Below the pieces are notes generated by a model. That model was not told the DNA's origin. It saw only the letters and a list, made by a program, of their open reading frames with translations, and did not search any database. Of a stretch of DNA of 64,000 nucleotides, positions 15,953 through 62,039 are shown piece after piece. The position numbers and the translations under genes are program-made. This stretch comes from Ceratodon purpureus (lineage: Eukaryota; Streptophyta; Bryopsida; Pseudoditrichales; Ditrichaceae): NCBI GenBank assembly GCA_014871385.1, contig CM026426.1, positions 64,027,877 through 64,091,876 on the forward strand. The letters run 5' to 3'. The first letter of the stretch is position 1; each line of letters begins with the position of its first letter.

Positions 15953-16199
15953 CCTCTTCAAATTTCTTTAAGTTATATTAAAGATTATTTTTTTTTCCTT
16001 AAACCATGGTGGCAAAGTCATTTATTTGTAATTCTGAAATGCTTTCAAATATTTTTTGTACTAAAAAAATACTTATAATATAGATATTGAAATCCGAGTA
16101 AACAGTTTTCTCAAGCTTCAAAGGTATATACCAATATAATATAAATAAGTGTTTTTAAATTTTTATTAAAACAAAGTCAAAAAGTACAGTGAAGCAACC

Positions 16200-28560: not shown

Positions 28561-29243
28561 GACATTTTTTGAGAGTTGTGGCAACGACTTCTACTCCAAC
28601 GGGGTTTGCTTCTTCGCTTCAGAAATTCGCAAGAAAAGATAAACTTGCGGGACTGAAGTCTCACGACCACCACGTTCTAATTCAGCAAGTCATGCCTACA
28701 ACGATCACAGGGAGCCTAGCGAGAGGACCTAGAGAAGCGATAATGCGAATGGGCACTGTCTTCCAGCAACTGTGCGTGAAGGTAGTGGATCCATCAGAAA
28801 TCGCAAGCCTCATGGACTATACAGCAGAAACATTGTGTATGTTTGAACAACACTTCCCACCTTTGTTCTTCGACATAATGACACACTTGGTGATTCATTT
28901 AATCGAAGAATTGGACCAATGTGTTCCAGTCCATGCACGGTGGTGCTACCCAATTGAAAGGTACATGGGAGTAATCGCTAGTTACATGAGAAATATGGCC
29001 CGCCTAGAGGCCATCATGGCCTCCGATTATAGAGATGACGAAGCCCTGGGCTTTGCTACCAAATACTTTGCAGATTTTCCGCACTCAAGACGTAGGGTCT
29101 GGGACTCCAAAGAAGAACGCTGCGACTCAGGCGAGCTTGTTATAGGACCCGTGAAGAACGTGACCCTGTCTCGAGAAGACATCGAAGGCATTCACGAATA
29201 TGTGGTTCGTCATTTGGAGTACACTACAGAGTTTTTAAGGTAA
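28542..29243 (+). CDS. DUF4218 module of CACTA transposase
   Basis: An unbroken 233-codon frame with the family's signatures: LKSHDHHVLIQQVMPTTI, ETLCMFEQHFPPLFFDIMTHL, VHARWCYPIERYMGVIASY, RNMARLEAIMASDY. This is the C-terminal conserved module of plant CACTA transposases. It follows the TNP2 core directly and ends at a GTAAGT (29240), a likely splice donor towards the DUF4216 module. Confidence 0.88.
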   Translation: MTESKRRHFLRVVATTSTPTGFASSLQKFARKDKLAGLKSHDHHVLIQQVMPTTITGSLARGPREAIMRMGTVFQQLCVKVVDPSEIASLMDYTAETLCMFEQHFPPLFFDIMTHLVIHLIEELDQCVPVHARWCYPIERYMGVIASYMRNMARLEAIMASDYRDDEALGFATKYFADFPHSRRRVWDSKEERCDSGELVIGPVKNVTLSREDIEGIHEYVVRHLEYTTEFLR

Positions 29244-36353: not shown

Positions 36354-37106
36354 TTGCTTCAGCATGAGAATGAGTGTGCAATGCGGAGGCTCACCCCATG
36401 GGGTGGGCCGATGAAGCATGGGTGTGTTGCGTTTTTTTTTAATTGAGAGTGCCATAGTCCTACTATTGTGACAGACTGTAGGCCGGGAGCATGAGAATGA
36501 GTTTGCAATGCGGAGGCTCACCCCATGGGGTGGGCTATAAAGCATTGGTGTGATGCATTCTTTTTCAAAAGAGAGTGCCCCGGTCCTACTGTCATCACAG
36601 ACAATAGTCCACGAGCATGAGAATGAGTTTGCAATGCGGAGGCTCACCCCATGCGGTGGCCGATGATGCATGGGTGTGATGCCTTCTTTTTTCCAAATGA
36701 GAGTGCTCCAGTCCTACAGCCTTGAGAGTGAGTAGGCCGGGAGGATGAGAATGAGTGTGCAATGCGGAGGCTCACCCCATGGGGAGGGCCTATGAAGCAT
36801 GGGTGTGATGGGTTTTATTTCCAAAAGAGAGTGCCCCGGTCCTACTGTCCTCAGAGACAAAAGGCCGGGAGCATAAGAATGAGTTTGCAATGCGGAGGCT
36901 CAGCCCATCGGGTGGGCGGATGTAGCGTGGGTGTGATGCGTTTTTTTTTCAAAAGAGAGTGCCACGGTCCTAGTGTTGTCACAGATAGTAGGCCGGGAGC
37001 ATGAGAATGAGTTTGCAATGCGGAGGCTCATCCCATGGGGTGGGCCGATGAAGCATGGGTGTAATGCCTTTTTTTTTACAATTGGGAGTGCGCCAGTCCT
37101 ACTGTT
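36354..37106. repeat. Minisatellite, about 127 bp x 6
   Basis: Unit starts (GCATGAGAATGAGT) fall at 36362, 36489, 36615, 36743, 36871 and 36999, spacing 126-128. Each unit has CAATGCGGAGGCTCA, a CCCATGGGG palindrome, an A/T run and GTCCTACTGT. The array continues after the hAT insertion at 39304-39335. Repeated short frames inside it are artefacts. Confidence 0.95.
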
Positions 37107-44611: not shown

Positions 44612-45124
44612 TTATCTATTTTTGGGAGAGATCCAGACACCATCTCTCGTAGAAATTTTCTCTCCTTCCAGCACATCTAAGACTTGATTCCCATTGGCCC
44701 TTAGCAATGACCTCAACTGATCTAACTCAAGGCAACTTAGTTGTCCAAGGGACGTTGTCTCTAATCTGTCGTTGTTAATTGGATTTGCAAGTGACCAAGA
44801 ACTCCTAAAAACATTCGAGTTGATGTTGAATTGATTTGCTTCATATTCGTCCTTAGGAATCCAATGCCGACCCCTGTGGGAAACATAATCCCATTTTGCT
44901 AGCCGTAGGCATGTATATTCAGGACTGCTGTCAATCTCACGCTTCCAAAGCTTTGACACAGCACGAGCGTTCTCGACGTCTTCAAACGTGATTACAGTCT
45001 GAGGAGTCCAAGCCTCCGTTGTACTACTACCTATATGATCCCAGGGATCCAGCCCATCCGCCATCTACTTAAGCAAATCCTGTAAAATCGTTTCACAAGC
45101 AACGACCTCAAATGAATCGCCCAT
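44612..45124 (-). CDS. F-box-like protein (copy 2), one early stop
   Basis: Paralogue of the gene at 15446-15952, similar along its whole length (ENARAVSKLWKREIDSSPEY, CLRLAKWDY, HWIPKDEYEANQFNIN, LGQLSCLELDQL). The start ATG at 45124 (MGDSFEVVACETIL) aligns with copy 1. An in-frame TAG at 45067-45065 falls where copy 1 reads on, so translation may restart at ATG 45064. Possible SKP1-binding adaptor by loose F-box resemblance. It converges on the methyltransferase-like gene, as copy 1 converges on the SET gene. Confidence 0.58.
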
Positions 45125-45534: not shown

Positions 45535-45542
45535 CCTAATTT
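45535..45542. repeat. Target-site duplication, left copy
   Basis: CCTAATTT immediately before the left terminus. Identical to 62032-62039. Confidence 0.97.
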
Positions 45543-45649
45543 CAGGGTTGTCACAGTCGTCCGGGACGCTCGGGACGTGGGGACGTCCGCGGACGTCTGC
45601 CAGCGCCAGAGGACGTCCTGTGACTTAGAAAAAAAAAATCACCCGCATA

Positions 45650-45671
45650 GGTTTCACCCCGAGGTGAAACC
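45650..45671. promoter_or_regulatory. Perfect hairpin near the left end of the hAT
   Basis: GGTTTCACC, loop CCGA, GGTGAAACC. Outside it CCCGC (45642) pairs loosely with GCGGG (45682). It could be a transposase-binding or RNA structure; no known motif. Confidence 0.6.
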
Positions 45672-45756
45672 ACACCTTCTACGCGGGGGAGGGGTTGCGG
45701 GGGAGGGTGCGGCCGTCGCCGCGGAGCGGGGGGGGCCGTCGGCCGCGTCGGGAAGG

Positions 45757-45870
45757 GGCCGTCCCCGGCGACGGCCCCTTGCCGTCGCCGCGGAGGGGGT
45801 GGCCGTCCTCGGCGACGGCCCCTTGCCGTCGCCGCGGTGGAGGGGCCGTCCCCGGCGACGGCCCCTTCGA
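45757..45870. repeat. GC block 1: 44-bp tandem repeat with GGCCGTC words
   Basis: Units start GGCCGTCC(C/T)CGGCGACGG at 45757, 45801 and 45844 (spacing 44 and 43). It lies 5' of the transposase and is almost pure G+C. Confidence 0.9.
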
Positions 45871-45976
45871 CGGCCCTGACAATCCATGATCGGACGGCCC
45901 CTCGCTTGACTTACGGCCTCGACGGCCGTCCTCCCTTGATTTTTAGGGCTTACCCCGTGGCATTTCATGGGATGAG

Positions 45977-45984
45977 TATAAAAG
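45977..45984 (+). promoter_or_regulatory. TATA box of the hAT transposase
   Basis: TATAAAAG, 254 bases before the first in-frame ATG (46231) and just after GC block 1. No perfect inverted repeat surrounds it, unlike the other three units. Confidence 0.6.
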
Positions 45985-46230
45985 ACCCCTCCTGAAAGTT
46001 GGCATTACACTTCTGAATTGTACTCCATGTGCTACTAGTTGCACTAATATACGTGTGTATCTGTTGCATGGTGAACGGCGGCGTTCAGAAGTGTGTTGAA
46101 TTGGAGTTTCTTCGGAGGCTCTAGTTCTCTTGAGGACGTGGTACCCCGATTTTTTGAAGTTTTTCCGGGCGATCTATCAAGTGCACCAATCGCGTCTAAA
46201 AGTTACTCCCCATGGTATACCGAAGTCGAT

Positions 46231-48606
46231 ATGATCGATGCGGAGAAGAAGAAGACCAAGATGGTTCAATGTATGCTATGCAAGAACACTTTCGCAAAGA
46301 GGATTGAGCGGATGCTCAGTCATTTGGGCTATGACAAAGTTCTAGGGGTACGGACTAGTGGAGTAGGTCGTTGCACTAATTTGTCACCCGCTATACTGTC
46401 CTTGTTCAAGAATTGCGGTGGCAAATTCCCCAACGACTCCTGAATATTCATGTCAGAGCAGAGTACTTCCACCGTGACTCGTGGCAATATATCCCCGAGA
46501 GTGAACACTCCCATGGATGTGGACTCATGTTCTGGATCCCGGGTTCCAACTCCGAAGAATGAACCCATTTTATTTGGTGAGGGTGTACCTTTCATTTCCA
46601 CTCTTCCGGGGGAAGGTAGTGGACCGTTTCCTCCTTTGAAGGCAAAGAGGCAATCTACCCTTCAAGAGGGCTTCGAAGAGACTCAGAGGCGGGAATGCGA
46701 CAAAGCATGGGCCACATGTTTTTACGAGAACAGTATCTCGTTTAACGTGGCTCGGAGTGCCTCTTTCAAGGACGCGGTGTTGAAGACGTCCAACATGAAG
46801 AGATCATACACACCTCCATCTTTCCACCATCTCCGAACAAATTTTGTAGCCCAAGCAAGGACTGATTTGGAGACTTCCTTGAATGATAGGATTTTTTCAA
46901 GTGTTAGGAAGTACGGGGGAACGTTGGCCCTGGATGGGTGGACTTCTGTAAGCAGTCGCCCTCTAATAAACGCAATGCTGGTATCTCCTGCTGGTGAGTT
47001 ATTCTTGGGAGCCGTTGACACGAGTGGGAAAGAGAAGGATGCCGTTTTCGTAGCGACCGTCATTGAGAAGTTTATCCAACAAGTTGGAGAACAGAACATC
47101 ATTCAAGTATGCTACGATAATGCTCCGGTGATGCTTAATGCCGGAAAGTTGGTCCAAGCACTCTATCCATCCATATTTGTCCAAGGATGTGCTGCCCATG
47201 CGATGGACCTTTTGTTGGAGGATTGGAGTAAGATGAAGTGGGTGAAGGAGCTCCTAGATCGGGCTAAGAACTTGGTTAAGTTCATAAAGATAAGGCAAAT
47301 GCCACTCTCGGTATTTCGAAAGCACGAGGCAAAACTTAGCTTGCTGATGCCTGGTCAGACTAGGTTTGCATCGCACTACATTATGATTTTGCGTCTACTG
47401 AAGGTTTGAGGAGCATTGGAGCAGAGCGTTGTGGATCATGACTGGAGAAACTACGAAACGAAGAAGACCTTATCTGCCCGTGACAAAGCGAAGATCTCAC
47501 GCGATGTTAAGAGGGTTGTCTTGGATGACGTTTTCTGGGAGCAATGTGCAAACTTCAAGTGGATGACGAGTCCCATTGCATATGCCCTACGAGAGTTTGA
47601 TGCGAAGGAATGGGCATTGGGTAAAGCCTACGTCGTTCTCCGCAACCTTGAGAAGCATGTCCTCTCTTTACGCCATGAGCCCTTCAAACTAGACTCTGAC
47701 AATGCTGATTTCTGCGAGGACTCATTTTATGAGCGTAAAGCCATGATTAAATCACCCTTACAGTGTGTTGCTGCGCTTTTAAACCCTTATCTTATTGACG
47801 ATGAGGACCTCCACAATGATACTGATGCGATGGCATCGGCGAAGGAGGTCTTGTTGTCGATGGCTCCTCCGACACTGAAGGAAGTGGTCATAGAAGAGTT
47901 CTTTGCATTTCGTGAAGCTTATCCTCCGTTTCGTGACGTACGTGACTCCTCTAAGTCACAACTGCCGCCTTTTGGTTGGTGGGATATATACGGATCCGCT
48001 GGTAAATTCATTTCCCCAATTGCAAAAAGGATTTTAGCTCAGCCCCTGTCTTCTTCTTCATGCGAGCGGAATTGGAGTAGCTACTCCTTTGTCCACAATA
48101 GGAAGCGAAACCGTTTACTTCCGGAGAGGGCAAATGACCTCGTGTTTGTGTATACAAATTCCAAGATAATTTCCCAGTCCAAGTTGAGTGGCTTAGGGAG
48201 GTTCTACGGGGAGTTGGAGGGGAAGGAGGATCCGAAGGCCGTGGAAACCGAGGACGTTGACTACTCTAGTGAGTCTGATGTTGATCTACCCTTCGACGAT
48301 CTATCAATTGACCCCCCTATTGAGGCCACAGTCGACGACCTCGAGGTGTCTCCGAAAGGAAAATCCCGTTGTTCTCCTGCGCCGATGGAGCGTGCTTTCG
48401 AGTATGATGATGTCGATGAAGAAGGTACCAACGAGGAGGATACGATTCCTCTTGCCTCTTTTCTGAATGGAGACGGTTTATTAAACAGTGATAAGATTCT
48501 CCGGGGAGGATCCTCTCATACTACCGTGGATTTGGTCGTACCAAAGAAAGAGGGAGACCCCACCATTGATACTTCTAAGGTTGTTCTCCAAACTTCAACC
48601 GCCTGA
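46231..48606 (+). CDS. hAT transposase (BED-like finger, DUF659, hAT dimerisation), two in-frame TGA
   Basis: One frame runs from about 46093 to 48606, interrupted only by TGA at 46441-46443 and 47407-47409. I chose ATG 46231 as the first in-frame ATG. Residues about 10-55 form a degenerate BED-type finger (VQCMLCKNTF ... MLSHLGY). The DUF659/RNase-H-like core follows: LALDGWTSVSSRPLINAM gives the first Asp, QVCYDNAPVM the second, and CAAHAMDLLLEDW the conserved Cys/His helix. The region after the second TGA (GALEQSVV) holds the candidate Glu. The C-terminus has the hAT dimerisation motif (ILAQPLSSSSCERNWSSYSFVH, LLPERANDLVFVYTN, about 48030-48170) and an acidic tail. Both TGAs fit CGA (Arg) changed at a CpG. 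Expected to cut and join the element at its CAGGGTTGT ends in the nucleus. Confidence 0.88.
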
Positions 48607-48614
48607 AGGACGAT

Positions 48615-49172
48615 ATGGTTCCACCAACTACAAAGGAGGATGTGCCCGTACCCGTATCGGGTGCATCTCGGACATTGTTTGGAACTGCAAAGACTAGGGT
48701 CCAAGTTGGTGGGTTCGAATCGTCCACGAGGTTGGTTGAGTTGTCTAAAAAAATGAAGGCAGATGCTAAGGCTGCTGAAGTAGCGGAGAAATGTAGGAAG
48801 AGATTGGTCCGAACCCGAGAAGCGGACCCGGGCCTCCTTTCTACTGATGACGGACTTTCAATTGGGCATCTCTTTGGGCCGAAGTTGGCTTTGGGAAAAC
48901 CGGACATATTTCCTGAGAAACCCCCTGCTAGGGCCACGTCCAAGCGAAAGGCTGTAGACAAGACTCAGAAGGTGTTGGCTTTCAATCCTGGGAAGCCAAA
49001 AACTCCTTTGGATGACCCGAATGGCCCAAAGAAATTCCTGAACCCATTCGAGTCAAAGAAGAAGACTAAGGCGAGGGTGAAGAAGGTACGCGAGAGCGAT
49101 GGCGATGACGAATACGATTCTTCCGGTCCTATTGGGGCCAAAGTGAAGGACGACAGCGATTATGTGGCGTGA
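48615..49172 (+). CDS. Basic 185-residue frame after the transposase
   Basis: Opens nine bases after the transposase stop in another frame (MVPPTTKEDVPVPVSG). It is Lys-rich with nuclear-signal-like runs (TSKRKAVDKTQK, FESKKKTKARVKKVRES) and an acidic end (DGDDEYDSSG). No domain recognised. It may be the transposase C-terminal tail reached by splicing or after an indel, or a separate small DNA-binding protein. Confidence 0.5.
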   Translation: MVPPTTKEDVPVPVSGASRTLFGTAKTRVQVGGFESSTRLVELSKKMKADAKAAEVAEKCRKRLVRTREADPGLLSTDDGLSIGHLFGPKLALGKPDIFPEKPPARATSKRKAVDKTQKVLAFNPGKPKTPLDDPNGPKKFLNPFESKKKTKARVKKVRESDGDDEYDSSGPIGAKVKDDSDYVA

Positions 49173-49716
49173 TTGTGCACGATAGTTAGAAGGCAGCATT
49201 TCCGGTGCAGCACCCTAGAATGCCACTCTTTTATGAATGTCCATTTCTAGAAAACCATTATCATATCATATACATTTAACTAAGCGGTGGTGCTTGCCTC
49301 CTCAATATTGTCCTCCACGTTGTGTACTTATGTTTACTTTGATTGTACTTCTCGCAATTTATTTCTCGTAATGAATGTACAAAATCTACATATGAAGTTC
49401 AATGCATCTAAGTACTAACAATTCTTTCAACACAAATGCAACTCCGAGAAAACATAAATGAAATTGTATTAAAACCAGAGGTAATTTTTGCAAGTACATA
49501 TAGAAGTAGTGTAAAGTCCATACACCCGGCTCCGCAACCAATATATATATATATATATATACTGCTCTAAATACGACTATCACCCAGTGCATTGTCACAT
49601 TAACCGTAGTAATGCGGGTACCATGTCCAACGAAAATACTGTACTCAACGTCCATTGTTTGCATTTGACCTCCGAGTTTGGCGTCGCTGGCTTGGATGTG
49701 TAATCGTACCCCCCGA
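49173..49716. other. Intergenic segment between convergent genes
   Basis: No gene. It holds the 3' ends of the transposase unit (plus) and the RING gene (minus), and a TA microsatellite at about 49540-49560. Confidence 0.5.
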
Positions 49717-52193
49717 TCAATATTCTTCTTCCACGCGATCCAAAGAACGACGATTATCTTCCCCCCATTCGGGGTCATCTTCATAAGGGTTGTCTCGATT
49801 GCGCTTCTTGGAATTCTTCTTGTTCCACAACTCCTTTGCCTTCTCAATCTTGGCTACTGTTTCTTGCACAATCTTCTCAATCCTATTGCGTGACCAACGA
49901 GAGGAATTATCCTCCGCACGAAGTGTCCTTCTCCAGTCGCAAACTATTTTCTGAAGAGCATCGTCAGACTTCTTAATGATCACCCAGTAGTCTAGGTCCA
50001 AATATTTGAAGGATTCCTCTGTAAAAGTGCGACGATGCTGAATGGCTTCTTCTAGTTTGGCCAATACAAGTGCCCTCCCAACCGGGGTTCTGTCATACAT
50101 CTTGTACTCATCAAGTTGGCCATAGTCCCGTTCTACTTCTCTTCTCTTACCGTCGGCATCTACCACAACTTCCGGTTTTGGAAACCGGAAGAAGCGATTG
50201 CCATGTATACTCCAATGTCCACTGAAGTTCCTACAAAAAAATTCTCGGTCCTTGGCATCCGGAATTTCACGTGCCCTCATCTCCACCTCATAGTCGTGTG
50301 TCATCCATGAAAGATCGTCCATTCCGGCATCGTTAGCCGTAGATAGTTGGTGAGTCATTGTCTCCGGGTTCCAAGCCAGTGATTTGCCCCAATCATAATA
50401 ATTCACCTCTTTCTTAGGTAGTTGGTCTAGTGGTAAATTCCACCGATCAAACTCATGCCCAGGCGGCATCACGTGTTGTAGTCCCAGCATCTTGTAAAAC
50501 CGTGAACTAATTGGGGAGCGGCACATAACACACTGTTTGTTGTTTAAAGCAGCCTTCGCGATGCAGGTTATGTGGAACTTGTGATTACAATTTCCCATCT
50601 CAAAGGCCCCTTCCGGCCCAAAATATTGTTGACAGATGGGACACGTCTCCTTCGAATATTCCTCCGACAGTTTGCGGGTATGGATAACCACACGTTTCGA
50701 TTCATCCAAATGAGATGATAGTACATCGTACGGCATCCACCCCTCCTCGACCTCTAGCGCCCAGTCAATGACCCCTTCTTTATTTTTGGAACTATGTAAT
50801 GTGCGCTCCATCATTTCTCCTACATAGCGCCATATCGTGATTTTTGTAGCATCCTCGCCGCCCTTGGCTGCTGCCTTGTTATACTTCTGTAAAGATGATT
50901 GGATAGCTTCTTCGACATCCATGGAAGTAATTGCACATTTCTTCATATCCTGTTGTGCTCTAGAGACTATTGTCTCCTTATCTCGTAGTTTGTGGACCCA
51001 ACCAAGCCATGATAATGCCCTTATGGAAGATGGTGTATCATCTACCATCTGTATGGTGGTCTTCAGCCTTTCCAGTTCCGTACGGGCCTCGTCTCTTTCC
51101 CTTCTAGCCACCTCCAAATCCCGTAAAAGAATGTCTAATTCCTTTGAATCATCCATTGGCCCTTTTCCTCTATCCTCATGTCTTGGTGATGCTTGGCTAG
51201 AGCCAATGTCCAATGGAACTGGACCAGATGTCATTTTAGACTTCTGAGACGCCATCCCTTGTGTGGCCCCATCTCCACTTTTATTTGAGAATTTAGAAAG
51301 GCCAAGGTCATCGGAATCCTCACCATCGCTCAGTACTTCAATGATACGATCCTTTCCTTCCACCTTCACCACTTCCTCCTTCACCGTAGGCTTCACTTCT
51401 TTTGTTTTGTTTTTCTCCTTATCTACCGGGTGGTAGATTTTGCACTCTTCCAATTGTGCATAAAAATTCATCTTCACATTGTCCAACCTTCTTGTCAAAC
51501 TCTTGATTTGTTGCGTTGCCTCCATTAAATCCTTACTCAGGGCCACGTTCTCTTCGCCTAATTTCACACGGTCTTCCAGAAGAGGCTTAATGGAAGATGC
51601 CAAAGTGTCAAAGCCAAGGGCACCCTGTACCATGCCGGGAGTGATACTTCCAAATGCATAAGCCATATTTATGAGATCTGGTGCCATAGCGCCTAATACG
51701 GAAGCCCCTTCTTTCAGGGTGTGTGCAATCTTCAACACATTATGAATTTGTTGCACTTCCTCCGTGGTTTTTCCTGCAGCGTCTCCCTCCGTGGTATTCT
51801 CTAAGCCCCCACGCTGTTCATCAGAGGACACCTCCGTCAATTTGATGCTAAAATCTAGTAACTCCTTCAATGATTCGTTGTTTGGCATCGACTTCACCAG
51901 CTCCATAATCTCCGAAATGGAATGAACTGCATCCTTTGTGCTATCCTCTTCGGTACGCACTTGTACTATTGCCAAGGAACTTGGACCATCATCCACTGAA
52001 CGAGGGTTGGAGCATCCGGCTTCCGCAACCGTAAGATGTGTTGAACACTCATTGTCCACCTCCACTTCCACCTCATCTACGGCTGCCTTGCCCTTTGTAT
52101 CGTTGAAAGATTTCACCGTGATTCCCAGGTCTGCTCTAGGAATAGTAGGGACATTAGTTTCTGTGGCAACGGGGAACATCGTAGCGATCACAT
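49717..52193 (-). CDS. Large RING-H2 protein, transposon cargo
   Basis: An unbroken frame with ATG at 52193 or 52179. It can be read open further upstream to about 52250, where it overlaps the next gene. Order: an acidic N-terminus; helices with LKELLDFSIKLTEV and IMELVKSM; coiled coils (about residues 210-260 and 350-420); a RING-H2 finger at about 516-556 (CPIC, then CNHKFHITC, then CVMC); then a conserved C-terminal half (WNLPLDQLPKKEVNYYDWGKS, FFCRNFSGHWSIHGNRFF, LDLDYWVIIKKSDDALQKI) and a basic tail. All eight zinc ligands of a RING-H2 are present, so it is a good candidate ubiquitin ligase. Target unknown. The C-terminal half matches nothing I recognise. Intactness over 824 codons suggests selection or youth. 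Confidence 0.82.
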
Positions 52194-52814
52194 TGGCAAT
52201 GGCAACGGGCTTCTTTTCCTCTGGACGATGCGGAGTTTCATTCTGTACTTTTTTACTTCATTCTTCGGAAAGCTCTTTAGATGTGGCCACTGCCGCTTTC
52301 GGAACTCCGCTACAACCCTCTTTGCTTGCAAAGGATCGATCAGATATAAATCCGGAATGTCTCTTACCATCCATCCAATTGGCAACGGCCTGTCTTTCGT
52401 AGTGGGGTACGTACACCAACTAATCTTCCGCTTCAATATTAGCTCCGCATATACCATACTGCAAATGGTATAATTGAAATGGCCTTTGCTGGGCTTACGT
52501 TGCCCAAACATAGTAGTCCAGACCTCATATGCCCGATGCAAGAAATGGTCATCCATGCATGACCAGGGCTTGCAAGTAAAAGTCCGTGTGTTCATCTCGT
52601 GTTCTTCTCGGGGCCACAACTTGTCAATGTGATACATCTTCACATACTTCTTGCACTCCTTGAAAGTCCAGAAAATCTCCCCTACAGATTCCCAGCCTTC
52701 TTCTGCTACAATGTTTTTGTTGTCTAGGATCTCCCAAGAAAAGTTGTGGCACGTTCCCTTCGGCCTGTTTCTCTTCCCGGTTCCTCCAATCTCATCATGT
52801 TCCGGATCCGCCAT
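52188..52814 (-). CDS. N-terminal module overlapping the RING gene in the -1 frame
   Basis: 208 codons from ATG 52814 (MADPEHDEIGG). The core block FKECKKYVKMYHIDKLWPREE ... MVYAELILKRKISW is shared with the gene at 57090 (CKEYVKMKHLMKLIP ... MVWAEIVLHKRVDW). The last 20 codons turn basic and unlike the rest. Reading one base back at an A-AAA-AAG sequence (52254-52248) leads exactly into the upstream extension of the RING frame (VQNETPHRPEEKKPVAIANV). So this is probably the N-terminus of one protein of about 1,030 residues, joined by a -1 frameshift, or split by an A-run indel. Confidence 0.72.
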   Translation of the reverse strand: MADPEHDEIGGTGKRNRPKGTCHNFSWEILDNKNIVAEEGWESVGEIFWTFKECKKYVKMYHIDKLWPREEHEMNTRTFTCKPWSCMDDHFLHRAYEVWTTMFGQRKPSKGHFNYTICSMVYAELILKRKISWCTYPTTKDRPLPIGWMVRDIPDLYLIDPLQAKRVVAEFRKRQWPHLKSFPKNEVKKYRMKLRIVQRKRSPLPLPM

Positions 52815-52918
52815 AGTAACCTCGTTTTAAACAAAAACGTAATGGTTTTGTTTTAAAGAAAACAAGGAGTTGATAAATGACGGTTTACAAAATAATGAAT
52901 ACAGAAAATTCAAAAACT

Positions 52919-52942
52919 CCCCCCCCCCCCCCCCCCCCCCCC
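52919..52942. repeat. 24-base C run upstream of the RING gene
   Basis: Poly-G on the coding strand, 105 bases before ATG 52814, inside the probable 5' leader. The kinase gene has a similar tract. Confidence 0.95.
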
Positions 52943-53039
52943 ACAATAAAAAGGGACCCCCATCTCCTCACCCCCACGTACCAACAAGCTCCCAAGTGAA
53001 TTGGGAAACTGTAGCAATAGGAGAGGGACTATTGAGGAG

Positions 53040-53600
53040 AGTGAAGTGAGGAAGTGGGGGACGGCCGTCGCCATATATGGCGACGGCCCCCAACCCTACG
53101 GCCGTCCCCCCAAGCCTACGGCCGTCGCCCCCCGATCCTACGGCCGCGGCCAATGGCCGTTGTCCCGAACCTGACGACGGCCGTTGGGGGCCGTCGGGTC
53201 GGGGGCCACGGTGACGGCCGCGGAGGCCCGTGCCTCCGCGGCCGTCCGATCGGGCCGTCTCCTCGGCGACGGCCGTCCGATGAAGGCCGTCGCCGGGGGG
53301 ACGGCCTTAGAGACGGCCCCCGAGGGGGCGGCTTGCGGCCCTCCGATCGCGGTCGTCTCCGCGGCCGTCGCCGTCCGATGGCGGCCGACCGCGCAGGGAC
53401 GGCCTTGGAGACGGCCTTGGAGACGGCCCCGACGGCGACGGCCCGCGGCCGTCCGATCGGGGCCGTCTCCAAGGCAACGGCCGTTCAACCACGGCCGTGG
53501 TCGAAGGGCCGTCCCCGCGGACGGCCCCTCGCGGAGACGGCCCACGGCCGTGGAGACGAGGCCGTCGCGGCCGCGGGAAATTTTCCTCCCCCCCCCTTTT
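53040..53600. repeat. GC block 2: GGCCGTC/GACGGCC island
   Basis: About 540 bases almost wholly of GGCCGTC and GACGGCC words in both orientations (for example two ACGGCCTTGGAG units near 53400). It ends in a C run and T run (53588-53604). It lies 5' of the RING gene. Long frames on all six strands here are composition artefacts. Confidence 0.9.
53063..53088 (-). promoter_or_regulatory. 26-bp perfect palindrome centred on TATA (RING gene promoter)
   Basis: Arms GGCCGTCGCC and GGCGACGGCC around ATATAT, perfect over 26 bp. Position is about 250 bases before ATG 52814. The symmetric TATA could serve either strand. Confidence 0.7.
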
Positions 53601-54292
53601 TTTAAATACAAATGATAAAAACATATAATGCTACATCTTCCGACCACATATTAAACTAAACCTGTTAATTTCTTTCACTAATTAAAATGAGAACAGCAGT
53701 TAATGTAAACATGAATTAAAATACTTCATGGTATGCAAAGCATCTAAATTCTTCAACGAGGTATTATTCCGTACGCTCCACCGAAGTTAATGTATGTGTC
53801 ATTTATTCGAATCATTATTTCTATTGTTTCTATCGTACGCATTTCATGCTGTCTACCATCGCACTCCAGAAGTTCCTTGCAGAAATCGAACTCATCTAAA
53901 CTTGTTTCAGAAATTGTAATCTTAATAGTTCTCCGTCTTCTTATTCTCCGCTTTGAATTTTTGTTTTTTTAAATACATAAGTACTTCTATTATACTTTCA
54001 TTAAACGGCTTCATATTCTCAATTTAATTCGAGTTACCATCTCTTTATGTACTTTTAACGTTCCTCCCTCTATACAATTTCCACTTTCGAATATGGTTTT
54101 CATTTACTTCTTCTTTATTTTCCTCTATGTTTATTCCCCCCTAGTTTATGCCCTTTTTTTAACGTCTAATTTGTCTAATCTACAACTCCAACCCTCGAAG
54201 CTCCATAAATGTCATTTCGTGAATTTCTTCCTTTCATATTGTTTCGAACGTCGTAGTTTGATTTATTTCCTCCATGACCCATGTTAAAGTAT

Positions 54293-54360
54293 ATTTTACT
54301 AATTCGACCACTATTCCACCATTTTACTAATTCGACCACTATTCCACCATTTTACTAATT
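54293..54360. repeat. 28-bp tandem repeat, 2.4 copies
   Basis: ATTTTACTAATTCGACCACT-type unit at 54293-54320 and 54321-54348, partial copy to 54360. A second small duplication, ACCCTACTGCTTTAGTTTT, follows at about 54365 and 54402. Confidence 0.93.
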
Positions 54361-55129
54361 CTACCCTACTGCTTTAGTTTTGAATTATATTCTACTAGAT
54401 GTACCCTACTGCTTTAGTTTTTATTGAGTACTGTACCCCTCTTTCATATATACGTTTTGAACTCTCTATGTATCACTACATCATGGCCGACTTCTATTTC
54501 TTCTAATAATTATAATTTCGATACTTTCCCTCTCAAACTATTTTTTTTTCGTCTATTATTTTGATGGTTCACTCATTTGTTTACTTATGAATATACTTCT
54601 ACTTCACAGCTTTCCCCAAGTGTATTGATACGTTATTTCTTAATATTACACCCGTCGTCGTTATAGTTCTAATATTCATATCCGTCCTCAAACCTCTTGT
54701 TCTTTGTGTTGTTCATTAATTTAATTAATTACTATTCCGAAACAATACCACCCTACCAAACATCGTTCATCAGTATTTTTAGTATTCCAATAATATGTAT
54801 ATATATTTCTAAAATTATGTCCCGTCAATATACGTTTTCGTGTAATAATTTTATTTCCGTACTTGTAGCTCCAAGTATTTCACGTCGTGACTTTTTAATT
54901 TTTCCTTGGTACTGTATAGTCTATGTGTCTCTATGAATTATCGTGTTTGTTAAATTCTCTCATTGTGTCATTAGTAAGTGATTACTTTTGTACGTATATA
55001 CTATACATTGTACAAGTTAGAATCCAATTCCATATTTATATTTACGTTAAAGTGTATATGAATAAACATATATTCCTATAGTATATAATGTAAATGTGTT
55101 ACCTAATTTATTTATTTTATTTCATATAA

Positions 55130-55600
55130 GTTACAACTCAATTCTGGGCGTGGGAAACTAGAATTGTTTATAAAAACAATGATTTCAATTTTAGTCGTTC
55201 ACAAATTGGCATTATTCAGTGACGATTGAATGTTTTCTGTTTTTGTTTTGTTTTTTACTATTATCCCTTCCTCATCTCATAATGTGAGCTAGTGATTTTT
55301 TTTTTTTTTAATGTTAACACAGTACTACGGTATGGAAGTGTGTAAAATAAAAGACATTAAAGTGCAAGGAGAGTTTTTATATTTCATATAACTCTAAACC
55401 AGGCATGAGAAATTAGAATTGGACCATCTGTTATGAAAACAATGATTTGAGTTTTATTCCTCCCATGAATTGCATAATCCCAAGAGAATTGAATGTTTGT
55501 TTTGGTTTTTTTTAATTTATTATTATCTCCAGTTTCTCTCATAATCTAAACTAATATTTATGTTTTTATTTTTGATTCTATCATAATACTAAAGAACGAG
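55130..55600. repeat. Diverged direct repeat, period about 245 bp
   Basis: Shared order in both copies: AACTC, GGAAACTAGAATTG / GAGAAATTAGAATTG, AAAACAATGATTT, ATTGAATGTTT, TTTTGTTTT, TCTCATAAT, a T-rich run, then GTGTGTAAAATAAAAGA / GTATGTAAAATTAAAGA. Confidence 0.65.
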
Positions 55601-56356
55601 AGTATGTAAAATTAAAGAAATAAAACTGGGGTAAATCATTCCATTAAAAATTAGAGTCAAAGAATCTATATAAATATTTTCATTGTATACCACTATTCGA
55701 GAAGAAATTGGATCTATATTTCTAAGAGATTTATGAAACCGTAAACCGGTGAAATATAAATGCAAATCTCTTAACCATTTAAACGTAAGTTGCACCGCAT
55801 GAAAAACCAAGTGTGTACATGAATTTATGCGTTGAATTACTTTTAATGCATTTTCTCCGCGATGTTCATCTTATCGTCTCCTTGTTGACATTTACTCTTT
55901 TGATTCGTTAGTATAAAATGTTAATTCATTACCGTATGCTGAAACATGAGTAACTTCGTTCATTTAAATGACACTTGGAAAAAACTGTTTTAGTATACCC
56001 ACAATGTTTACAGTTCTTTCCATTCAATAGGATATATATTCTTCTTCATAAACGTGTTCACATTATTTGTAGATCCTAAGGGGTTATCCACCCTAAAAGA
56101 ACCAAAATATCACATAGTTCATTAACTCCCAATTTCAAACGTCGACCCCACCTCCCCGATCACAGGATCTTCAGGACATTCCCCACAATATCCGGGATAT
56201 GTCTGATATTTCCATTTGTAGAAGATATGCTGTCCAAACAATCCCAAGTGGGATTGTTTTGGACAAGAAGGAGGGGGGAGAGTAGGGGGGAGATTAGGGG
56301 AGGAGAGGAGGGAGGAGAGGAGAGAAAACACAAGGGGAGTGGAGTTCCTTTGACCC

Positions 56357-56705
56357 TCCCCCCCCCCCGGCCGTCCCCGGGGACGGCCACGGCCAACCCC
56401 GCGTGGACGGCCGCGGCCGACACCGCGGTCGCAGCCCCCCGACCCCGGGATCGGTCCCCGCGGGGCCGACCACGCCGCTGCAGCCTCCGACCGCGGGGTG
56501 CAGCACGGCCGTCCCCGCGGTTGGCCGCGGCCGACCCCGGGACGGCCGTCCACGTGGTCGGCCGTCCCGACCGCGGGACGGCGGTCCATCGACGCACCCT
56601 TTGGGGAGCGGTCGCGGCCGCGATCCTGGACGGCCGCGACGGACCTGTTAGGGCCGTTGGATTCTCCATTCCCCGAGATCCAACGGCCGTAGGGGGGCCG
56701 TCGTT
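56357..56705. repeat. GC block 3: GGCCG/GACGGCC island
   Basis: Same word usage as the other GC blocks, beginning with an 11-base C run (56358-56368). It lies 5' of the gene at 57090. Confidence 0.9.
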
Positions 56706-56731
56706 TGACCTGACTGGCTGTCTAGTGGTTC

Positions 56732-56754
56732 GGGCCAGCATAAAAGGCTGGCCC
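56732..56754 (+). promoter_or_regulatory. TATA box in the loop of a perfect hairpin
   Basis: GGGCCAGC, loop ATAAAAG, GCTGGCCC: an 8-bp perfect stem. It is about 340 bases before ATG 57090. Confidence 0.7.
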
Positions 56755-57089
56755 TGCTTCCTTTTTCTTCACTTGGGTGCTCGTGCTACATGTGCTGGAT
56801 TTACTTGAGCTCAGTTGCGTTCCTCCAAGCTTTTTCTACTTCCCCACGGGTTATCGTGGGATTGTGTTTAGGGTTGTCAGCACCGTATGTTGGTTATTAT
56901 GAAACCAACAATATAGTGCTTCATACGTACGGTTTTTTGGCAGGAGTTCTGGGTTTTGTTTTAGTCCTTATGCACTAGATATATACGAGATTAAATCAAC
57001 TTTTATACGGTGGGGAGAAGTTACTCGCATTGTTACAAGGTTGGTTCGATACACGGTATTCACAGCTACTCGCTTACCGGACTTTCGCC

Positions 57090-58590
57090 ATGCCTCGTAA
57101 CGACCGGGGAGGACCCTCCACTCGTAAAAGGAAACACCCTTTGGATCCATACGCTACGAATGACCCTGATTGTGTAGCAGAGATTGGATGGAAGGGGGAA
57201 CCATCACCATGGCGGATGGTAACTTGCAAGGAATATGTCAAGATGAAGCACCTCATGAAGTTGATCCCAGTACATCTACGTACCGAGGCTGCGGAGAAAC
57301 AGGCAACACGGGGAGAGATCAGGATCGACAATTGTGAAAGTAGTCATTTCAAAATTCGATACAACGAGGTTTTTCGAGCAGCACGAATCCAGAACTCCCG
57401 ACCTCATATCATGTTGTATTCGAATATGGCAATGGTGTGGGCGGAGATAGTCTTACACAAGAGGGTTGATTGGACCACAGTCTCGGGCCTGAGGACAGAT
57501 AGAATGAACAGAGACAGCATGGATCTTGTAACAGACTGGAGTGGACATAGCGATTGTCCCCCATTACATATTTCAAACCGTCGGAGTCCACCGGCACAAG
57601 ATGCAGGAATACAAACTCTAGCCATCGAATATAATGATGAGGAACAGGAGAGACGTCGTTTAAGCTATGATGATGAAGACAACTATCGAGGGCGTCGCTC
57701 AAACGAAAATCCCAGGAATCGCAGAGGGCATCGTGGCAGAGAGTCATCGCGTACCAACCATGAGGAGGATGGACAAAGCTCTGCCCACGGGGGACACCGT
57801 TCGCTAGATCGTCAGGACATGGGACCCCATGAACGAGGCTATGGCCACAGGGAACCGGAAGGAGCTGATTTACCCTTTGACTTTGCGGATGGTGCGTATG
57901 GACCCTATGGGGGACGACCGTGGCCAGATTATGCAATGGGATCAAGATACTTTAGTAACTATGACGACGGCTGGTCGGAAATACCTAGTCCTCCAAGGAG
58001 TGCTAGTCCGCGCCATCGAACACCTCCGAGAGAGGTACCTCACGGTTATTCCCCAGATTGCGAAGAAGATACGCAGAGACTGGGACGTGATGATTACTAA
58101 ACTCCCCCTCCATACCGTGGATATGGTGGTCATGGTACCCCATCTGCCCTATTTGCAGAAGATGATTACAGATCATCTTCGCGGACTCCGCCTGGAATAT
58201 TTCCTCCACCTCTAGGTTATCACACCGATGGTACTGATCACAATAGCGGGGACAACCCCAACGTACTTTGTCCCGATGACAGAGTACCACCTCCTCCTTT
58301 TGGATACCCTCCCGGTCGAGTTGTAAGAGATAGCTATTTTGAGGAAGAACTGGAGTTGGAGCGAACAAGGCAAAATTACGTACTACAGATGGAGAATCAT
58401 GCTTTCACCTTAGACGGGATAATCGAAGATTGATGGAGGAGAGAGAGAGACTTCTGAGAGCCTCCACAAATTCTGCAAGGCACGGGCCACAAGAAACGTA
58501 CGATCGGGGAGGTCCAAGCGAACTCCCCAATGATGGGAACTATTATCATCCATATGACTACAATGGATTAGGGTGGAGGGGAGACTATTA
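57090..58590 (+). CDS. Paralogue of the RING gene's N-terminal module with a disordered Arg/Gly/Asp/Pro tail
   Basis: ATG 57090 (MPRNDRGGPSTRKRKHP). The first 150 residues share the CKxYVKM-H--KL-P ... M-WAE--L-K--W pattern with 52188-52814. From residue about 180 the protein is disordered and of mixed charge (RRGHRGRESSRTNHEEDGQ, GAYGPYGG, PPRSASPRHRTPPRE), like nuclear RNA-binding or phase-separating tails. The frame stops at TAA 58098-58100 but stays protein-like in frame to about 58420 (TPPPYRGYGGHG, FGYPPGRVVRDSYFEEELELERTRQNY). It then continues after one frame change to YDYNGLGWRGDYY and a stop at 58590. So there are probably one nonsense change and one indel, or an intron. No RING is present. 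Function unknown. Confidence 0.65.
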
Positions 58591-58594
58591 GAAT

Positions 58595-59533
58595 GGGGTG
58601 CATGGTAGTACTTCCTACAGCATCGGAGCGTACCGAGTCTTTAACGTGGACCTCGCATATTACAAATTTACAACGGAAAGTAAAAGATGCAAGCATAGTA
58701 TGTACGTAGTTCGCAGTTTTGTAGATGGAGGTTTAAAATGTACGGACTCAAGAATATTGGCACGTGCCACATTTTGCAAGTAGAATAGATATAATTAGTG
58801 TTTTAGAGTGTAGTTGTGTTGTCTTTTATATTGTAGTTGTCTTCACATTTGAAAGGAATTTACCTTTTTAATATTCTTCTAGCATTATTCTAAGTGCACA
58901 TTACTATCAATATCACTATTTTTAAAATGACAACTTCCTATTGACATGGGTTTCGACTTACGAGCACTAGAATATTATGAATCTCAGGACAAGTATGCAA
59001 AATAATTTTCAAATATTGTTTTTGCTAAATTAATAAGAATATCGTGAATGATATTTTTTGAGGGATGCATATTTATATCTAAGGTATTTGTTTGTACCGG
59101 GGATTATGAGCAATCATGTTTTGCGGCCCTTACGCTTTCGTCTTCACGAAAAGAACTTCAGTATACGTTTGCCAATATTTCTAAGAGTAAAACGTACAAA
59201 GCATAACGGTTACAATTCACATATCGCATCATTTTCATAATTAGAATTGAGAGTATCGACTTTTAGCTGGATGTGTGGAGCCAATCCGTTTTCCTCATAA
59301 TACAAGGGGGAGAAATAGACCATTCTCAGTACAAAGACCATATTTGAACCAAATGCAAGTAAACTTTATAAACAAAATATTGACCCATGTACAAAAATTG
59401 AGATTCCAACATCTCATAATAATATAGAGTCTAAATATGACTATTCACCACTGAGAGCTATGCCCGCCGTTCGGTAACAAAAAAAACATTATGCTTTTAT
59501 AGAAATACGGAAAGGTAGATATGTATCTCCATA
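58595..59533. other. Spacer between convergent genes in the hAT
   Basis: AT-rich, no supported gene. It carries the 3' regions of the gene at 57090 and of the kinase-like gene. Confidence 0.5.
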
Positions 59534-61009
59534 TCAGTAACCCACGCGGTAGTGCTCGATGGGAGTGGGCCAGTTGTGTGTATCTCTGAAACGGTTAATA
59601 AGATGTCCGAGTCCACCAATCGTTCCTCTGTTGTTTTGGCAAACTCTCTCAAGGTAACCTTTGAAAACCATTGCGAGTTCTCCGATATTCTGGAAATGGC
59701 ATGTTTGTACTGGCTCCGCTTCGTGGTATGCCGTGCACATGTTGCCCTTGTTGATCTTCGCTGCAATATTCGCAGCTGCGAAATCCTCCGATGCAACCGT
59801 CAAATATGGAAATATTTGAATATCTTGGTTTTCCTTGTGTACGTATACCACGCGAGGATCCACCCAGTATCGCCTCCTCATAGTCTCCTCCTTCTGATGG
59901 ACACTCTCAAAAACCCAAGGCGACCTTCTGTTCTCTAGTGTCTTCGTCATCAAGCCCCAATCACAAACCCCGATGTAGATCTTGGACTCATCTTCCGGAA
60001 AGTGAAGTAGGATGTTGTCCGGTGACAAGTCATTGTGGAGGTAATCGTATTTGTGCACAGCATCTATGATGTTACACAATGCCCAAGCAAGCTCTGTACG
60101 CTTACTTCGGAAAAGTTGGAGACGCTTCCCTAGAATCGGACTGTCCTCTGCATTCTCTCTGAAGATGTAGTCGATGGGGAGGTCGCCCGGGGCCTCGTTG
60201 TCTCTCTGTAGCATGGCTCGCAGGGTCCCACCGTTCCACCAGAACATGAATCCCACATGTTCCAACTGATGAATGGCCATGAAGCGGATGACACCAGGAT
60301 GGGGAATCCTTATCGCAAGAGATTCATTGTTGTGGTCCACACGTGCCAAATCCGGCCTCATAGACCAATTGAGCGGCCGTTTCTCAGCAAACTCCCAGTA
60401 CGGTGGGATTTCCGGGTTTCCTTCGATACGAACCCTACGTATGGTAGCATAACCACCTCTCTGGACTTCCTTGTCCAAGTAATAGAAAATTGCAAAGTCT
60501 GCCAAGATAGTCAAATGCCGTTTACGTAAGTCAGCCGCCGTCTCCATCCCAATCGGAGAATTCCACCACGTAATAGACGCCCGTCGATGCTTTCTTGAGC
60601 TTAGGGGCGCCATTAGTCTCGTGAAGCAATCTGCCTTTGCAATAGTATCCTTGAAGGCCTGGACTCCCCCCCTTTGCGCCTTTGCATACTTAGTAATAAC
60701 CTCTTTAGCATTCCATAACGCATCGTGTGCACGTTGTGACACAAAATGATCGTAACCGGGCTTCTGTGTATCCGAATGCCAGCACGGATCCATCAAACGA
60801 TCCCTAATCTTTGTCTCCATCTCTGACTTGAATTTCCTGGGCCCATCTTCCCCATACCGAACGTAACGACTATTCAATGAAACAAGGGTATTCTCCTGGT
60901 AAAATTCCACGATGAATGCCACAATATAATCCCTGCAACATAAGCTCGGCATGTCATCGAATTTGTTCGCCCATTCCCCCACATTCTTCTGCTTCTTGTT
61001 CTTCGGCAT
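59534..61009 (-). CDS. Protein-kinase-like protein, transposon cargo, intact
   Basis: 491 unbroken codons from ATG 61009 (MPKNKKQKNVGEWANK). Residues 1-180 are an unassigned N-terminal region. A kinase fold then follows: a loose Gly-rich loop (GGYATIRRVRI, about 183-193), a possible FAEKR lysine, HPGVIRFMAIHQLEH (about 240-255), and helices before the catalytic loop YLHNDLSPDNILL (about 322-334, HRD read as HND with the catalytic Asp and the distal Asn kept). The metal-binding segment is IYIGVCDWGLMTK (about 342-354, DFG read as DWG). The order and spacing fit a divergent eukaryotic-type Ser/Thr kinase. The altered loop may lower activity, but Asp, Asn and the second Asp are present. It is the rightmost gene of the hAT, with its own promoter and GC block. 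Confidence 0.8.
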   Translation of the reverse strand: MPKNKKQKNVGEWANKFDDMPSLCCRDYIVAFIVEFYQENTLVSLNSRYVRYGEDGPRKFKSEMETKIRDRLMDPCWHSDTQKPGYDHFVSQRAHDALWNAKEVITKYAKAQRGGVQAFKDTIAKADCFTRLMAPLSSRKHRRASITWWNSPIGMETAADLRKRHLTILADFAIFYYLDKEVQRGGYATIRRVRIEGNPEIPPYWEFAEKRPLNWSMRPDLARVDHNNESLAIRIPHPGVIRFMAIHQLEHVGFMFWWNGGTLRAMLQRDNEAPGDLPIDYIFRENAEDSPILGKRLQLFRSKRTELAWALCNIIDAVHKYDYLHNDLSPDNILLHFPEDESKIYIGVCDWGLMTKTLENRRSPWVFESVHQKEETMRRRYWVDPRVVYVHKENQDIQIFPYLTVASEDFAAANIAAKINKGNMCTAYHEAEPVQTCHFQNIGELAMVFKGYLERVCQNNRGTIGGLGHLINRFRDTHNWPTPIEHYRVGY

Positions 61010-61144
61010 CGTGGTAAGCCTTCAAGGCTTCAAGAAATCGTAACCGCAACTCCAAAGAAACCCTCAATTCCCACTATGATTAATAAGAGCAATACAAATC
61101 CAAAGGGTTTTGAAAAAAACCGTTTAAAAATTCGAAAAGTCCAA

Positions 61145-61169
61145 CCCCCCCCCCCCCCCCCCCCCCCCC
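61145..61169. repeat. 25-base C run upstream of the kinase gene
   Basis: Poly-G on the coding strand, 136 bases before ATG 61009. Same placement as the tract before the RING gene. Confidence 0.95.
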
Positions 61170-61284
61170 AAATGAAGGACCCCTTTCCTCCCGGTGAGAA
61201 CGACCAACGGAGAAGGATCGAATCCCCCACCAGTAGCAATCAGCCTCACTCGAAAAGGGAGAAAAAAGGTAAAAAATGAAGAGG

Positions 61285-61311
61285 CGGCTTCCCCTTATAT
61301 AGGGGAAGCCG
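61285..61311 (-). promoter_or_regulatory. TATA box in a perfect inverted repeat (kinase gene promoter)
   Basis: CGGCTTCCCCT and AGGGGAAGCCG pair perfectly (11 bp) around TATAT. On the minus strand it reads TATATAAGG, a good TATA box, 276 bases before ATG 61009. Confidence 0.72.
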
Positions 61312-61990
61312 ACCTCGCGGCCGTCCCCGCGGCCGTCCGATCTACGCCCCCGCGGCCGTCCGATCGGGCGCGACTCCGCTCGAAGGCGCCGGCCGTCCGA
61401 CCGAAGCGGCCGTCTCCGCGGTCGGCCGCGTCTCCACGCGGTCGGCCACGCGGACAGCCGTCTCTCCCCGCGGTCGCCCACGCGGACGGCCGCGGGATCG
61501 GACGGCCCTCCGCGGCCGCCATGGTCGGCCTGGGAGGCCGTCCGACCCAGTGGCCGTCCCCGGAGACGGCCGCCCGATCGGACGGCCCACCCAGGCCGAC
61601 CATGGCTGCCGCGGGCCGTTTGATCCCGCGGCCGTCGCCGTTGCCGACCGCAGGGACGGCCGCGGGATCCGATGGCCCAGGAGGGCCGCCCACATCCGAC
61701 GGCCCGCGATGTGCCTGCATGGCCGCATCTTGTCCGTCGGATCGACGTGCGGCTTTCCCCAACAACCCCGCGGCCGTCTCCGCGGCCGTCTCCGCGGCCG
61801 TCTCCGCGGCCGTCTCCGTGGCCGTCCCCGCGAACGGACGGCCGAGATGGGGCGTGGTGGCGGGATCGGCCGATCGGACGGCTGGGGAATGTTTTTACCC
61901 CTCCAGGGTCGCAAAATTATTACCGCGACGTCATTCTCGAGCGTCGGGGACGCCACGTCCGGGACGGGGGACATCCGGGTCGGACGTCTT
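61312..61990. repeat. GC block 4: GGCCGTC island next to the right end
   Basis: About 680 bases of GGCCGTC/GACGGCC words in both orientations, then GACGTC-rich subterminal text. Includes a 12-bp tandem GCGGCCGTCTCC, four exact copies plus one variant, at 61770-61829. Confidence 0.92.
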
Positions 61991-62031
61991 GACGTCCGGA
62001 GCCGGGTCGGACGTCTTTTTGAACAACCCTG

Positions 62032-62039
62032 CCTAATTT
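62032..62039. repeat. Target-site duplication, right copy
   Basis: CCTAATTT directly after the right terminus of the giant hAT. Identical to 45535-45542. Confidence 0.97.

Follow-up and report, generated by a model that had tools for sequence, protein, structure and literature searches.

A giant hAT element with three cargo genes in the moss Ceratodon purpureus and its recurrence as a four-gene family

Can a plant hAT transposon carry several additional genes, move with them as one unit, and make use of them? The question is raised by a 64-kb stretch of the genome of the moss Ceratodon purpureus (hereafter the window; contig C6, which is 110.5 Mb long, at 64.03-64.09 Mb), in which an earlier note, made from the sequence, had described a single giant hAT element with three cargo genes. 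Maize Ac/Ds and the classical hATs carry a single gene, span a few kb, produce 8-bp target-site duplications, and give rise to non-autonomous derivatives with the same ends. In this work, we characterized the window element and searched for its relatives in the same genome (362.5 Mb in 151 contigs). With moderate confidence, we regard it as one of the older, partly decayed members of a four-gene hAT family that is young, probably autonomous and about 16.5 kb long, and whose accessory proteins would keep it expressed or mobile.

Boundaries of the element and its recurrence in the genome

The giant element occupies positions 45543-62031 of the window (16,489 bp) and is flanked on both sides by a perfect 8-bp target-site duplication, CCTAATTT (45535-45542 on the left, 62032-62039 on the right). 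Its terminal inverted repeats (TIRs) match exactly over 9 bp, being CAGGGTTGT at 45543-45551 (+ strand) and ACAACCCTG at 62023-62031 (- strand). The ends and the duplication described in the earlier note stand; its interval, 45535-62039, took in both duplications and is narrowed here. On the + strand of the window, CAGGGTTGT occurs twice (33267 and 45543), ACAACCCTG once (62023) and CCTAATTT four times, and an exact search of the window found no further CAGGGTTGT or ACAACCCTG inside the element. The lone CAGGGTTGT at 33267 lies outside it. No N is present among the window letters. From left to right, the element contains a hAT transposase gene (46068-49172, + strand), a RING-H2 cargo gene (49645-52814, - strand, its low end being estimated from a copy on C4), an AT-rich spacer (53600-56250), gene 3, which encodes a protein without known family (57090-58591, + strand), and a divergent protein kinase gene (59534-61009, - strand); the genes thus form two convergent pairs separated by the spacer.

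Recurrence of this arrangement was assessed by DNA searches with each gene, in which the best 40 matches were scored among the first-look candidates (transposase 246, kinase 220, RING 220, gene 3 215), numbers that come from a loose prefilter and are not copy counts. Same-strand matches whose projected starts agreed within 4 kb were joined into one locus. Copy counts rest on the best-ranked matches of longer lists, and loci with few genes may merely rank beyond the matches listed; therefore, all locus counts given here are lower bounds. Of the 86 or more loci in the four DNA lists combined, 36 showed a single gene, 32 a pair, 12 three genes and 6 the whole set. Each of the six gene pairs was found in the same order and on the same strand between 14 and 23 times (40 matches per gene), and never on opposite strands or in reversed order. 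When the transposase DNA list was joined to protein searches with the cargo (86 kinase, 43 RING and 81 gene 3 matches), one gene or more was found at no fewer than 114 loci; all four genes occur in the same order and on the same strand at 13 of them, and the three cargo genes at 27, with all three stop-free at 15 of these 27 among the matches listed. Gene spacing is similar from copy to copy at many loci, for transposase and cargo alike. Because every gene pair recurs in the same order and on the same strand, and the control arrangements are absent, the giant element is the product of neither chance nor misassembly, and the cargo belongs to it. The proposal of a single giant hAT that carries three cargo genes is hence borne out by the ends, the duplication, the Pfam matches and the recurring four-gene order, as is the expectation that other copies would share this order. 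The ends recur as well: for the left 201 bases, the best 40 of 396 first-look candidates display 96-100% identity, and so do the best 40 of 386 for the right 200 bases, the window copy itself being included in both cases.

Five giant copies were read at both ends, two of which (C2:22.43 Mb and C4:8.53 Mb) are known from their ends and coordinates, and four of the five have perfect 8-bp duplications. As had been predicted, the duplications of the three other giants differ from that of the window copy, namely ATATTAAT at C6:18.6 Mb (15,201 bp, the start of the RING gene being affected by a deletion), CCAAACTG at C2:22.43 Mb (16,619 bp from coordinates) and TTTGTTTC at C4:8.53 Mb (16,721 bp from coordinates). 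The fifth copy, at C4:18.20 Mb (16,761 bp), has four open frames and non-matching flanks, and some 32 kb from it lies a twin whose cargo proteins round to 100% identity with its own; because of the mismatched flanks and the near-identical twin, this copy may have moved by duplication instead of transposition. In the 371 bases fetched for a sixth copy, at C1:9.17 Mb, no left end was located. An empty site with a single CCTAATTT had also been anticipated, and one was found in a related repeat on C9 (L028, 8806-8998), where the window flanks meet at one CCTAATTT with 94% and 86% identity; this is an empty related site and not the allelic one.

Small relatives accompany the giants. Complete elements of 4.3-5.4 kb, with the ends of the giant and a perfect 8-bp duplication, are present in 15 of 20 stretches, end pairs being sought by exact match and BLAST pieces shorter than 250 bases being dropped; in the other five (L017, L018, L019, L020 and L024) no matched end pair was found by exact match within the stretch. 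Giants and small elements together display 19 different duplications, of which the Ac target consensus (nTnnnnAn) fits one and that of Buster (nnnTAnnn) none, a result that concerns the subgroup and not membership of the superfamily. Fourteen of the 15 small elements share interior sequence with one another, and these 14 interiors show no match of at least 100 bases to the giant away from the end regions. The remaining one, L013, is a 4.5-kb derivative in which the middle of the giant (53.2-56.5 kb) stands between the ends, positions 53217-56545 making up most of its interior. The open reading frames (ORFs) of L012 and L026 contain nothing resembling transposase or cargo by eye, no family search having been run on them. 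Their matching ORFs recur on both strands and on both sides of the interior, which suggests a large palindrome. Overall, the small elements look like non-autonomous derivatives moved by the transposase of the giant.

Gene content and motif blocks

The transposase gene was identified by Pfam matches and by its recurrence at other loci. Both DUF659 (PF04937, E=2.2e-35) and the hAT dimerisation domain (Dimer_Tnp_hAT, PF05699, E=4.9e-10) are past the cut-off, and a BED-like finger (PF02892, E=0.003) reaches 18 bits, just under its cut-off of 20.6. In the window copy, the gene is interrupted by in-frame stops at 46441-46443 and 47407-47409 and by a frame change near 48.6 kb. At C4:18.20 Mb it is one open frame of 1051 codons, with the strings LDGWTS, YDNAP and CERNWSS at 305, 365 and 682, which are the putative catalytic D, D and E motifs of a hAT transposase.

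Regarding the cargo, the RING-H2 gene (Pfam E=1.8e-7) encodes what is likely an E3 ubiquitin ligase; in the window copy its frame is broken near 52.2 kb and ends early at 49717. Gene 3, interrupted in the window by an in-frame stop at 58098-58100, had no Pfam family match up to E=1, and residues 35-167 of its product are paralogous to the N-terminus of the RING protein (32% identity, E=2e-9). The kinase gene, whose frame is open in the window copy, was recognized by its HNDLSPDN and DWG motifs, its best Pfam match (E=4.8e-5) and its best match to a solved structure (E=0.0077); among 86 scored matches, 54 cover its full length and contain no stop. In a scan of NCBIfam, the only matches were kinase-like ones far under the cut-offs, the best at E=0.0013, and a rad18 match of the RING protein at E=0.44, and a pattern search for relatives in viral contigs gave no match for the kinase and two for the RING protein, neither of which was confirmed.

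A short motif links the four genes. GGCCGTC or GACGGCC occurs 68 times in the window, and 67 of these occurrences lie within the element, all of them in four GC-rich blocks placed one beside each gene start (specificity being assessed within the 64-kb window). Block B1 (45680-45940; GC 0.78, 12 motifs) adjoins the transposase gene start, B2 (53030-53560; GC 0.75, 25-26 motifs) the RING gene start, B3 (56280-56720; GC 0.74, 9 motifs) lies upstream of gene 3, and B4 (61300-61900; GC 0.76, 20 motifs) stands beside the kinase gene start and constitutes the right subterminal region. Composition-shuffled blocks would contain 0.2-0.4 motifs, against the 9-25 observed. Both directions are mixed in every block (6/6, 13/13, 5/4 and 13/7 from B1 to B4). 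Among 34 sequences searched, of which 15 were small elements and 19 were giants in whole or in part, the anchors of B1, B2, B3 and B4 were located in 5, 8, 8 and 4 copies, window included, with 10-17, 18-29, 9-23 and 20-32 motifs, respectively; thus, the blocks are present wherever both anchors were located, with variable length and 9-32 motifs. Since B2 and B3 lie more than 5 kb from either end, binding of transposase at the termini would not by itself suffice to explain the blocks.

Age, selection and the role of the cargo

Only the kinase frame is open in the window copy. With three of its four genes broken, this copy is an older one, partly decayed although whole in structure; the description of the element as complete and recently inserted therefore fits the youngest members of the family, which are nearly identical to one another, rather than the copy for which it was proposed. 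When the kinase of the young C4 copy was used as query, 12 of the best 40 matches (query included) rounded to 100% identity, and they were distributed over C2, C3, C4, C6, C8, C11 and C13, from which it follows that the family has moved very recently.

Older copies appear to be distributed differently. According to passages of two reviews, the C. purpureus genome measures about 360 Mb, and its sex chromosomes, U and V, are each larger than 100 Mb, or some 30% of the genome, with more than 3,400 genes apiece. The published V reportedly measures 110.5 Mb; C6 is likely a sex chromosome. Among the matches listed, C6 holds 64 of the 114 loci, and with identity to one C4 copy as a proxy for age, it holds 30 of the 35 gene 3 matches whose identity to that copy does not exceed 97%, versus 15 of the 46 at 98% or above (Fisher P=1.6e-6), the same split giving 12 of 17 old versus 8 of 26 young matches for RING (P=0.014). 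Older giant copies thus seem to be retained on C6, much as little recombination on a sex chromosome would predict; young copies show no such concentration. A general enrichment of the family on C6 is not claimed: its share was 42 of 86 loci in lists led by the window copy (P=0.0004), and the excess was gone with the young C4 query (11 of the best 40, P=0.73).

To assess selection, sites that differ from the C4 copy were classified and compared with what is expected when base changes and CpG context are held equal, sites being treated as independent; BLAST pieces shorter than 300 bases were dropped, and L001-L008, L032 and L040 (from end searches or the window) and L039 (the L020 locus) were left out. 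Besides C4, full-length copies numbered 3 for transposase, 3 for kinase, 8 for RING and 10 for gene 3. Differences shared by at least two copies, a class that takes in sites where all other copies differ from C4 and that may thus include changes of C4 itself, gave an omega of 0.47 for transposase (67 sites, P=0.0004) and 0.36 for kinase (25 sites, P=0.0074), and the three cargo genes combined gave P=0.0025. Singleton values were 0.83 for transposase, 0.59 for kinase (P=0.028), 0.90 for gene 3 and 1.07 for RING; in singletons, transposase, gene 3 and RING hence appear close to neutral, and kinase less so. Constrained shared differences together with near-neutral singletons are expected if the genes are kept while the elements are mobile and decay after insertion. 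Purifying selection is fairly clear on transposase and kinase, and suggestive on the RING gene and gene 3.

Taking these findings together, the family would work as follows. The transposase would cut and paste the whole unit as well as its small derivatives, and the three accessory genes would serve the element, each of the four genes being driven or marked by its own GGCCGTC/GACGGCC block. The paralogous N-terminal domains may bring the RING and gene 3 proteins to these blocks, and the RING protein and the kinase may modify host chromatin, silencing factors or the transposase, such that the element stays expressed. An anti-silencing function of the accessory proteins is our working hypothesis. 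A more specific version, in which targeting proteins (RING and gene 3) and the kinase form a protein-modification toolkit that recognizes the four blocks and undoes silencing locally, in a superfamily and with proteins unlike those of the VANC system described below, is put forward tentatively.

Several observations weigh against this interpretation. Autonomy rests on the single copy read with an open transposase, C4:18.20 Mb, which is also the one that has no matching duplication, and among the fetched copies besides this reference, unbroken full-length frames amount to 0 of 3 for transposase, 2 of 8 for RING, 1 of 10 for gene 3 and 2 of 3 for kinase. Higher open-frame fractions were found in the protein searches (for RING, 35 of 43 scored matches keep the 1060-codon frame free of stops, and for gene 3, 41 of 81 keep one of 537 codons), and these, like the kinase fraction given above, are flattered by lists ranked according to likeness to the query, which for RING and gene 3 is an intact young copy. 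On their own, the shared differences are not significant for gene 3 (omega 0.54, 33 sites, P=0.062) or RING (0.74, 79 sites, P=0.085), and the possible contribution of changes of C4 itself applies to all four genes. In an earlier run with fewer copies, sites where all copies differed gave 0.43 for transposase (32 sites), 0.95 for RING (24), 0.35 for gene 3 (16) and 0.42 for kinase (17), and the other shared sites gave 0.50 (35), 0.67 (55), 1.11 (5) and 0.30 (7), respectively. The C>T rate at CpG sites, taken as a possible mark of hypomethylated blocks, did not clearly differ between blocks B2-B4 (0.0256-0.0327) and gene bodies (0.0269), in a noisy alignment of repeats with BLAST pieces shorter than 400 bases dropped. 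Finally, structure prediction yielded no usable fold for the kinase (mean pLDDT 34.9) or for the domain common to RING and gene 3 (35.8), and with such low values a DNA-binding fold of this domain is a guess.

Among other explanations, the one that survives best, although we consider it rather improbable, is passenger capture, in which an ordinary hAT took three host genes that do not help it, as in Pack-type cargo, and recent spread keeps their frames open. Kinase and RING genes belong to common host families, selection on RING is weak, and many copies are too young for decay to be expected; against this, constraint is suggested on the kinase and on the combined cargo, motif blocks stand beside all four gene starts, that of the transposase included, RING and gene 3 are paralogous to each other, and at C4:18.20 Mb each of the four genes is one open frame. 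The indications of selection on the cargo, together with the motif blocks common to all four genes, make a role in the service of the element likelier than passenger status, while not indicating which role. One such role, dosage control, is unlikely: a kinase and a probable E3 ligase next to a transposase would make a plausible control pair in a large and numerous element, modifying or degrading the transposase and so limiting or timing transposition instead of acting on host silencing, yet neither the motif blocks at internal gene starts nor the RING/gene 3 paralogy would be explained. That the cargo is a second element nested within a small hAT, the possibility that the earlier note had set against its own proposal, is highly improbable, for although small elements have the same ends and the giant resembles two convergent gene pairs around a spacer, there is no second terminal-repeat pair inside, transposase and cargo are similarly spaced at many loci, 14 of 15 small interiors have no match of at least 100 bases to that of the giant away from its end regions, and L013 is its middle.

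The window contains other features. A RING-like gene at 10143-11147, with a relative at 4912-5361, gave 131 matches among 1835 first-look candidates in the genome; its other eight full-length matches at 94% lie at most 14 kb from the ends of chromosome-scale contigs (C3, C4, C9, C12 and C13) or on C18, C73 and C108, and it looks subtelomeric. The possibility that the cargo genes share a domain with the RING-like genes at 3.8-11.1 kb was considered and rejected (hhalign probability 1.4%, P=0.038). A SET-domain frame lies near these genes at 13844-14464 (E=2.4e-8). Remains of a CACTA-type element, with matches to Transposase_21 (tnp2) and DUF4218, were found at 27775-29240, paralogous frames without Pfam match at 15446-15967 and 44612-45064 (55% identity, E=1e-56), and a minisatellite of 5.8 copies of a 128-bp unit at 36361-37105.

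Comparison with known systems

A multi-gene life style appears possible for the hAT superfamily in plants, as exemplified by this young 16.5-kb family, moved as a unit with three extra genes that are often open. Its many near-identical natural copies constitute material for testing the role of these genes. Gene counts of very large sex chromosomes may also be affected, as a complete copy contributes four gene-like frames and more than half of the loci listed are on C6. No multi-gene plant hAT was described in the titles or abstract openings searched, a coverage that excludes most subscription papers, and the available part of a review of giant transposons contains no whole-word "hAT".

The moss element shares with Ac/Ds the hAT transposase domains, the 8-bp duplications and non-autonomous derivatives with common ends, and differs from it in its three extra genes and its length. 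Fungal Starships are likewise giant DNA elements with cargo; according to the portions of the literature available, they are classed by a tyrosine recombinase, a domain that Pfam did not match in any of the nine element proteins scanned, and the moss gene set recurs. The nearest known counterparts found are ToxhAT, as a giant hAT, and VANDAL/VANC, as a way of working, VANDALs being Mutator-like elements.

Like the moss element, ToxhAT of fungal wheat pathogens has a hAT-like transposase and several other genes within TIRs; those of ToxhAT lie 14.3 kb apart and are 74 bp long, one of its eight ORFs is a second transposase nested within the element between repeats of its own, and no target duplications are identifiable (PMC6737239). 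The moss element differs from it in its 9-bp TIRs, its perfect 8-bp duplications, the occurrence of one or more of its genes at 114 or more loci, its recurring four-gene set and its plant host. A nested second transposon was not seen in the moss element, in which no further terminal repeats and, among the nine proteins, no other transposase domain were found, other internal ends not having been searched for.

In Arabidopsis, passages of the studies on VANDAL21/Hiun describe VANC as an anti-silencing accessory protein bound to a short motif that is dense in the non-coding DNA of the element (PMC5735166, PMC10398659), with motifs in one orientation and a block length that varies among copies (PMC5735166). 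Both systems thus combine accessory genes with a short motif dense in their own non-coding regions, in blocks of varying length. The moss element is distinct in being a hAT, in its other motif, in the occurrence of this motif in both orientations, which may be added to the observations unfavourable to an anti-silencing role, and in the RING and kinase proteins that it encodes.

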